Source: Tenuifilum thalassicum (GTDB lineage: Bacteria; Bacteroidota; Bacteroidia; Bacteroidales; Tenuifilaceae). From it: a stretch of DNA of 64,000 bases. The notes below the pieces were generated by a model. The model was given only the letters and a program-made list of their open reading frames with translations, did no database searches and was not told the DNA's origin. Location: the NCBI RefSeq assembly GCF_013265555.1, contig NZ_CP041345.1:2154581-2218580 (forward strand). The letters run 5' to 3'. Both the position numbers and the translations under genes were made by a program. Shown here piece by piece: positions 6,525 to 44,528 of the stretch (the stretch's first letter is position 1; each line of letters opens with the position of its first letter).

Positions 6525-6635
6525 TCGGAATGAATCGGAAATAATCGGAAGATATTGTCATGCCGAGCGTAGCCGACGCATCTTTCGCGGAGGAATTTGA
6601 GGAAGCTAGAGGAAGTTAAAAACGTTTCGGAATGA
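6525..6635. repeat. Composite intergenic repeat, copy A (10-bp-period modules flanking a dyad core)
   Basis: Three tandem decamers TCGGAATGAA, TCGGAAATAA and TCGGAAGATA (6525-6554) are followed by a core, TGTCATGCCGAGCG... to ...GCATCTTTC (6556-6583). Next come GAGGAATTT, GAGGAAGCTA and GAGGAAGTTA (6590-6618), then another TCGGAATGAT (6626-6635). The same modules recur in inverted orientation at 44142-44255 and 44367-44503. It lies between the convergent ends of the phosphoesterase gene and the 1534-residue protein gene. Confidence 0.85.
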
Positions 6636-6946
6636 TACAGTGTTTCTTGTATTGTTTTTAATGTTTCGAACATGGTTTTAATCATTCTTTTTGGCATGAA
6701 TTAGATTTCTTGCCACATAGGTAGGATTTAGCGATTGTAAAATTTCCTAATACGATGCCGACTCATACAATAATGAAACCTAAAAACCAGCATTGAGGTC
6801 TAGAAACCCATGCTCGAAAAAATTCCCAAGAAACAATTTACATACAGGGCATAACAGAATACCTCACATTAAGAATTTAAAAAGGCAAAAAGGGAAATCT
6901 CCCGATCCAATGAATATGTCATTTAGGTTGACTTCTTAACTAATGT
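6636..6946. other. Remainder of convergent intergenic region
   Basis: About 310 bases, AT-rich and without a credible ORF. The only feature seen is a short hairpin with T run on the minus strand near 6892-6903, listed separately. No RNA gene or further repeat was recognised. Confidence 0.6.
6887..6903 (-). terminator. Possible weak terminator of the tpiA-prmA operon
   Basis: On the minus strand GGGA-GATT-TCCC (6903-6892) is followed by TTTTTGCC. The stem is only four pairs, so it is a weak candidate, but it is placed 44 bases after the stop of the last gene. Confidence 0.35.
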
Positions 6947-33413: not shown

Positions 33414-33463
33414 CCTCTATCTTCTTTTAACTTCATCTAACTTCATCTAACTTCTTCAAATTT
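33414..33463. repeat. Decameric tandem repeat (CATCTAACTT type)
   Basis: Five contiguous 10-base units: CCTCTATCTT, CTTTTAACTT, CATCTAACTT, CATCTAACTT, CTTCAAATTT. The same unit (TTCCTCTAAC in another phase) is repeated at 44454-44503 and, inverted, at 6590-6618. The core and TTCCGA modules seen in the other copies are missing here. Confidence 0.8.
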
Positions 33464-43849: not shown

Positions 43850-43931
43850 ACATATAGTTTTATAGTCAAGTGAAAGTAGTATCCCATAAAATGAACTAGC
43901 TAAAAACCTAAGGCAAATTAGGTGGAGAAGG

Positions 43932-44028
43932 ATTCAAGATTTCAAATTCAAAATTTCAAATTCAAAATTCAAGACTTGTGCTTCTTAAACGAATAAAAGG
44001 CGTTAAACGTTAAACGTTAAACGATAAA
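43932..44028. repeat. Heptameric repeat block, copy 1 (TTCAAA-type then CGTTAAA-type)
   Basis: ATTTCAA/ATTCAAA units alternate with a 7-base period from 43932 to about 43973. After a 27-base spacer come CGTTAAA, CGTTAAA, CGTTAAA and CGATAAA (44001-44028). The same order of TTCAA units, spacer ending TAAAAGG or TAAGAGG, and CGTTAAA units recurs at 44270-44365. Confidence 0.85.
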
Positions 44029-44065
44029 ATATTGTATATTAGAGGGATCTGCATTATATTTCTTA

Positions 44066-44110
44066 CACCACAGAGTTACACAGAGAAATGCACAGAGGCA
44101 TAGAGGAGGA
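44066..44110. repeat. Approximate decameric ACACAGAG repeat
   Basis: Units around CACAGAG recur about every ten bases: CACCACAGAG, TTACACAGAG, AAATGCACAGAG, GCATAGAGG. Spacing is 10 then 12 then 8, so it is less regular than the neighbouring arrays. Confidence 0.6.
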
Positions 44111-44141
44111 AAACAAACATGGCCACATAAATCTTCACGTT

Positions 44142-44255
44142 CATTCCAAATATTTCCGTTTCATTCCGAATCATTCCGAGTCTTTCATTCCTCTAACTTC
44201 TTTTAACTTCCTAATATTCTTCAGGAAGAGATGCTTCGGCAAGCTCAGCATGACA
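44142..44255. repeat. Composite intergenic repeat, copy B (inverted relative to copy A)
   Basis: Decamers CATTCCAAAT, ATTTCCGTTT, CATTCCGAAT, CATTCCGAGT, CTTTCATTCC, TCTAACTTCT, TTTAACTTCC run without gaps from 44142 to 44211. After TAATATTCTTCAGGAA comes the core GAGATGCTTCGGCAAGCTC...AGCATGACA (44228-44255), whose ends ATGCT/AGCAT are inverted repeats. Its reverse complement matches the module order of copy A at 6556-6635. Confidence 0.85.
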
Positions 44256-44269
44256 AGGCATGGTTCAAG

Positions 44270-44365
44270 GATAAAGGATAAAGTTCAAGGTTCAAAATTT
44301 CAGATTTGTCTGGCGAGGACGGATAAGAGGCGTTAAACGTTAAATGTTAAGCGTTAAACGACAAA
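44270..44365. repeat. Heptameric repeat block, copy 2
   Basis: GGATAAA, GGATAAA, GTTCAAG, GTTCAAA, ATTTCAG follow a 7-base period. After a GC-richer spacer ending ATAAGAGG come CGTTAAA, CGTTAAA, TGTTAAG, CGTTAAA, CGACAAA (44331-44365). It is a diverged duplicate of 43932-44028. Confidence 0.8.
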
Positions 44366-44366
44366 A

Positions 44367-44503
44367 TCTTCCGATTATTTCCGAGTCATTCCGATTCATT
44401 CTTCAAGAAGAGATGCCTCGACTACGCACGGCATGACAAAACAATACACTGTGTTCCTCTAACTTCCTCTAACTTCCTCTAACTTCCTCTAACTTCTTTT
44501 AAC
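44367..44503. repeat. Composite intergenic repeat, copy C
   Basis: Decamers TCTTCCGATT, ATTTCCGAGT, CATTCCGATT, CATTCTTCAA (44367-44406) are followed by the core GAGATGCCTCGACTACGCAC...GGCATGACA (44410-44437). Then TTCCTCTAAC occurs four times exactly (44454-44493), plus TTCTTTTAAC (44494-44503). The identical units suggest recent slippage or unequal exchange. Confidence 0.88.
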
Positions 44504-44528
44504 TCCATCACATTCCTCAATAAATCTC

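Follow-up and report, generated by a model that had tools for sequence, protein, structure and literature searches.

The window analysed here (a stretch of 64,000 nucleotides, positions 2154581-2218580 of a 3.196-Mb single-contig genome) carries, in two of its intergenic gaps, three copies (A, B and C) of a composite repeat in which a short palindromic ‘core’ lies beside decamers that keep an exact 10-base register. The locus thus raises the question of what such an arrangement is: an array whose helical phase is under selection, a satellite that has grown in place, a signal that acts in RNA, debris of lost genes, or a unit that has spread. The initial annotation had described three shared modules, and these are indeed all present, with cores, TCGGAA-type decamers and GAGGAAGTTA-type decamers found in copies A, B and C. 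The features are as follows (window coordinates).

6525..6554, + strand: copy A, B-type decamers TCGGAATGAA TCGGAAATAA TCGGAAGATA, the tail of a partial upstream unit
6556..6583, + strand: copy A, core of 28 nt, TGTCATGCCGAGCGTAGCCGACGCATCT, a match to the core pattern
6584..6598, + strand: copy A, diverged linker TTCGCGGAGGAATTT, linker offset 16
6599..6618, + strand: copy A, A-type decamers GAGGAAGCTA GAGGAAGTTA
6619..6640, + strand: copy A, degenerate B-type remnant, which includes TTTCGGAATGATACA
33418..33457, - strand: an extra A-type decamer array with no core, between same-direction genes and absent from the initial annotation
44142..44189, - strand: copy B, B-type decamers
44194..44228, - strand: copy B, linker CTTCCTGAAGAATAT and A-type decamers
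44229..44255, - strand: copy B, core of 27 nt, TGTCATGCTGAGCTTGCCGAAGCATCT (genome 2198809-2198835)
44367..44410, - strand: copy C, linker with B-type decamers directly after it (A0-B-C-B, with one +1 shift)
44411..44438, - strand: copy C, core of 28 nt, TGTCATGCCGTGCGTAGTCGAGGCATCT, a match to the core pattern
44450..44509, - strand: A-type decamers (TAACTTCCTC when read on the + strand) that lie upstream of the copy C core, part of a separate core-less array

Across the genome, these repeats form a non-coding family of about 70 or more members that is specific to this lineage; the idea that the window might hold the only copies is thereby refuted. The canonical unit runs from the core (27 or 28 nt, of the form TGTCAT-NNN-GA...GA-N'N'N'-ATCT) through a 16-nt linker to A-type and then B-type decamers, where A is GAGGAAGTTA and B TCGGAATGAT...; two further types, C and D, read TCGGAAATAT and TCGGAAGGAA. 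The linker is exactly 16 nt long in 56 of the 62 copies with an A decamer, and 15, 17, 25 or 26 nt in the rest. Decomposed arrays follow the order A0-A-A(-A)-T/B1-B-C-D, with A(2-3), and only 16 of 409 array steps fall off register (ten of them as a shared +4 variant), in a decomposition that tries the 10-base step first and so leans towards 10.

This order holds for the family but differs among the three copies themselves: copy B is a canonical unit, and in copies A and C the unit has been rearranged or truncated. Copy A is made up of the B tail of a partial upstream unit followed by a core-A unit, and in copy C a run of A decamers precedes the core, its own A decamers having been lost. The B-type decamers of copy A begin a few bases past the point at which the upstream gene stops; the stop-codon region itself reads GAGGAATTTAA and resembles a T-type decamer, and the array goes on from it in register; in this single case the unit may have been joined at short homology.

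Family size was assessed in 0.93 Mb of sampled sequence (the window, stretches around matches, and 20 stretches of 20 kb at even intervals), which yielded 69 units, all in intergenic gaps (34 of them) and none inside called genes; with 0.93 of 3.196 Mb analysed, these unit counts are lower bounds. With copy A as the query, BLAST finds 79 matching places genome-wide, and 55 core-linker-array junctions occur in the genome. The core pattern has two matches in the window (0.00 in shuffles) and 19 genome-wide (none for the reversed pattern), and dimers of the A and B decamers have 209 and 137 genome-wide matches respectively, against one for each control. Solo decamer arrays also exist, such as one of 10 decamers at genome 827423.

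We propose, with a probability of roughly 0.6, that we are dealing with a composite repeat, non-coding and dispersed, in which a REP-like hairpin core has been fused to a decamer satellite and the two have spread as a unit; among the roles suggested by the initial annotation, that of a ‘mobile non-autonomous element’ fits best. In this scheme, a REP-like core with a TGTC tag would have been combined, in this lineage alone, with a decamer satellite (A decamers followed by B) that the genus already possessed, and the fused core-linker-array unit would then have been copied in one piece into dozens of intergenic gaps. Units would also have multiplied head to tail within gaps by local duplication, and the uniform orientation of the units in every gap that holds two or more of them (21 of 21, all head-to-tail) fits such tandem duplication. 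As to the route of dispersal, a trans-acting enzyme may have used the core, in single-stranded form, as its hairpin substrate; alternatively, units may have moved through recombination or template switching at short homologies. A role for the host is most likely absent or weak, with the units being selfish or neutral DNA that is tolerated in gaps.

The predicted hairpin comprises five Watson-Crick pairs, then a tandem G.A opposite G.A, then up to two further pairs. In a set of 81 distinct cores taken from other genera, 79 have a Watson-Crick pair at the outer variable stem position (shuffle mean 28, maximum 42), and 70 are paired at the inner one (shuffle mean 44, maximum 54). In thermodynamic terms single cores fold weakly: as DNA they reach -2.5 to -3.8 kcal/mol, which is no better than shuffled sequence, and the case for the hairpin thus rests on this covariation.

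The closest known kind is the CGTC-tagged REP superfamily, in its TGTC variant, and the match is a partial one, such that the element is REP-like rather than a plain member. As set out by Di Nocera et al. (2013; PMC3733652), that superfamily includes dRS3 of Neisseria and RPE-4/RPE-6 of Rickettsia; its repeats carry an unpaired 5' CGTC tag (TGTC or CCTC being accepted in many repeats), complementary AT at stem positions one and two, a stem of 8-9 bp with a loop of 4-5, and a short unpaired 3' tail, mostly CCA. The same paper describes them as predominantly HH dimers that are multicopy and intergenic, reported in Bacteroidetes and without a dedicated transposase, and notes that the intergenic regions holding the Neisseria CGTC-1 elements are mosaics, in which these elements are interleaved with repeats of other families (PMC3733652). 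Set against that account, the present core has the TGTC tag in nearly all copies, and TGTC-AT...AT-CT in most copies of its own genome (elsewhere this feature is built into the scan pattern); it is likewise a short palindrome with a covarying stem, multicopy and intergenic, lies in mosaic gaps as CGTC-1 does, and has no associated transposase, as judged here by a Y1_Tnp search alone. It departs from that description in having a 3' tail of CT or CTC and not CCA, in the tandem G.A position that interrupts its stem, in the fixed linker and decamer array that its units carry, and in the head-to-tail rather than HH arrangement of its multi-unit gaps. HH-like pairs of cores are seen just at genome 2697176-2698051 and in congeners. 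The former is a separate BIME-like array (L050) of alternating cores with two stem types and no decamers, GCT-type forward and CCC-type reverse, about 48 bases apart, as also found in congeners G001 and G006.

The GTAG REP/REPIN system with its RAYT transposase offers a further likeness, in that there too a short hairpin is scattered through intergenic sequence as a non-autonomous unit, but the core lacks the GTAG tag and its own genome has no match to Y1_Tnp (Y1/RAYT transposase); RAYT-driven GTAG REPs are excluded on these two grounds, and the congener Y1_Tnp loci that we examined neither hold cores nor are flanked by them. Bacterial interspersed mosaic elements combine REPs with further short repeats into mosaics within gaps; short tandemly repeated repetitive sequences consist of tandem units of short period. 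Compared by form alone, both recall the mosaic gaps and short-period units found here, whereas here the decamer types are ordered and the junction to the hairpin is fixed. A search of literature text for the letters of the core or the decamers returned nothing relevant.

The core alone has a far wider distribution. Going by record titles, and as a lower bound, it occurs among the matches listed in at least a dozen phyla, the taxa there comprising Bacteroidota, Bacillota, Chloroflexi, Omnitrophota, Armatimonadota (Fimbriimonadales), Acidobacteria, Planctomycetota, Pseudomonadota, Desulfobacteraceae, Hydrogenedentota, Ignavibacteria, Latescibacterota, Poribacteria and Thermodesulfovibrio; in two Bacteroidales records (L109 and L127) its immediate sequence context is the same as that in congener G001. 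It is conceivable, if rather doubtful, that the TGTC-ATCT core represents one very widespread non-autonomous class, with a mover other than Y1/RAYT, which has here captured and mobilised the decamer satellite.

The decamers, for their part, are found as arrays in six of the seven genomes of the genus, and also occur in a second genus of the same family; in congeners the arrays are joined to other modules (e.g. CGTGAACCGTGAGCC heptamers) and not to the core. The fused core-linker-array junction is absent from 39 relatives (six congeners among them), and an A decamer follows none of 173 cores from other genera and none of 38 congener cores. On this reading, the unit family exemplifies how two intergenic repeat families of independent standing can fuse and spread as one, with congeners that hold the parts separately; this makes the spread of transposase-less CGTC-type repeats testable by strain comparison.

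At the orthologous gap of copy A, four congeners have neither core nor decamer, and their convergent genes nearly abut. At the place of copies B and C, four congeners likewise lack core and decamers, and hold instead a different gene of about 1.1 kb that abuts an ABC-transporter gene, where the present genome has a repeat-filled gap (window 43850-44528). The units at both window sites are thus peculiar to this lineage. In both cases the stretch that was inserted or replaced exceeds the unit in length (by comparison with the congeners, the gap at copy A differs by some 430 bp), and no target-site duplication is definable in the comparison of copy A, or of copies B and C, with the congeners. At another unit site (genome 1725457-1725714) the upstream gene is not conserved.

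These comparisons bear on whether the repeats are remnants of gene decay, having built up passively at places of gene loss, by way of template switching or error-prone repair and with no mobility. The congener gene at the place of copies B and C would suit such a process, as would the unrelated repeat modules interleaved in the same gaps and a placement that is regional; the latter follows from the finding that the 20 evenly spaced stretches (400 kb, L069-L088) hold no fused unit, all 69 lying in other stretches. Against this, no gene is missing at copy A, where the congener genes simply abut. We regard passive build-up as unlikely, and note that it is a variant of the composite-repeat explanation rather than its opposite.

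Growth in place is the next possibility to weigh, and turns on the 10-base register, which is real. In 222 kb of non-coding sequence, GGAA words are spaced 10 bases apart 357 times, and 20, 30, 40 and 50 bases apart 297, 207, 140 and 101 times, with roughly 5 to 40 counts at spacings other than multiples of 10; coding sequence has no such peak. Were the arrays simple-sequence satellites produced in situ by slippage, with no dispersal as a unit and with the core adjacent by chance, then variation in length by whole decamers would be expected, and 21 indels are in fact multiples of 10 (indel counts being approximate, as they come from a simple local alignment and include its artefacts); the solo arrays point the same way. 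The fixed 16-nt linker and the order of decamer types are, however, conserved across distant gaps, and neighbouring decamers have not been homogenised. Adjacent A decamers of an array are identical at 8.19 of 10 positions, no more than those of different gaps (8.49 on average), which speaks against the ongoing slippage that had been suggested, and the highest likeness (8.96 of 10) is that between first-position A decamers of different gaps. It is decamers of the same ordinal position in different gaps that are most alike, and not array neighbours, and the array would thus have spread ready-made. We therefore consider in-situ slippage improbable as an account of the feature as a whole and largely refuted for the fused unit, although it probably gave rise to the older satellite that lacks a core. 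From these patterns in the sequence, the register is best explained as a probable relic of that satellite origin and of gains and losses of whole decamers, and not as a helical-phase requirement.

Whether the units act in RNA, as a structured element or as a 3'-end processing or termination signal transcribed from flanking genes, can be judged by their placement. REP-type repeats often lie at 3' ends and have been proposed to act as RNA, according to the same paper (PMC3733652), and the covariation of the core stem is consistent with this. The 34 unit-bearing gaps, as classified from gene calls made with a simple codon-score method and no trained gene finder, comprise 20 between same-direction, seven between divergent and seven between convergent genes; the divergent class argues against a 3'-end signal, as does the absence of transcriptional polarity, with units in same-direction gaps lying 8 times with the genes and 12 times against them. 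RNA folds of the units have z-scores from -1.7 to +2.7, and Rfam 15 has no match at gathering score in the window. We accordingly give little credence to an RNA element. Long-range pairing between a core arm and the B decamers was also considered and rejected; it appears when copies A and B are folded as RNA, but the z-scores are not significant, and the B decamers are unchanged whether the core arm reads GCC or GCT.

Least probable of all, and in our view very unlikely, is a helix-phased protein-binding array or transcription barrier maintained by selection between convergent genes, to which the exact register over up to 12 decamers, the convergent genes at both noted window sites and a slight convergent excess under one baseline (p = 0.034, gaps of at least 150 bp) would lend themselves, but against which stand the 27 of 34 gaps that are not convergent (p = 0.20 with all gaps and 0.087 with non-coding bases as the baseline), the unbiased 8:12 orientation, the integer period of 10 with no GGAA signal at 21 or 31 (the spacings that a 10.5-bp helical turn would favour), a period-9 stretch of the same satellite in congener G006 (L250), register-breaking indels whose rate of 10 per 100 substitutions shows no clear depletion beside the 0 to 28 of five other dispersed modules (approximate counts), and the absence of arrays from the orthologous congener sites. 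The proposal of selection on helical phase, and with it that of a phased binding array, is not supported by these observations; nor is that of a transcription barrier, given the orientation of the units and folding that is no better than in shuffled sequence for most pieces; and the association with convergent genes, correct for the two sites described initially, does not extend to the genome at large. The composite, dispersed unit that we favour instead cautions that a 10-bp period need not mean helical selection.

Other repeats share these gaps. Heptamer arrays (CGTTAAA, ATTCAAA and GGTTCAA/AAGGATA) are interleaved with the units at window 43932-44028 and 44262-44360, spaced 330 bases apart, and similar heptamer modules come back in other unit-bearing gaps. 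A CTCTGTG-type module lies at window 44060-44110 (CACCACAGAGTTACACAGAGAAATGCACAGAGG) and also at genome 63.9 kb, 64.6 kb and 1217.7 kb; it recurs after B decamers in several gaps, and an alignment from the sampled sequence comprises 16 to 17 copies. Another long repeat has a core-like start, TGTCATGCYGARCCTGCCGAAGCCACG, followed by CTTCTTTTGCCTTGATGCAAAAGAAGCAAAA..., and is present in about nine well-conserved copies (genome 1259172, 1267446, 2766108, 2768796, 2804183, 2807571, 2982658, 2986112 and 2992606); in same-direction gaps, all six of the six seen point against the genes.
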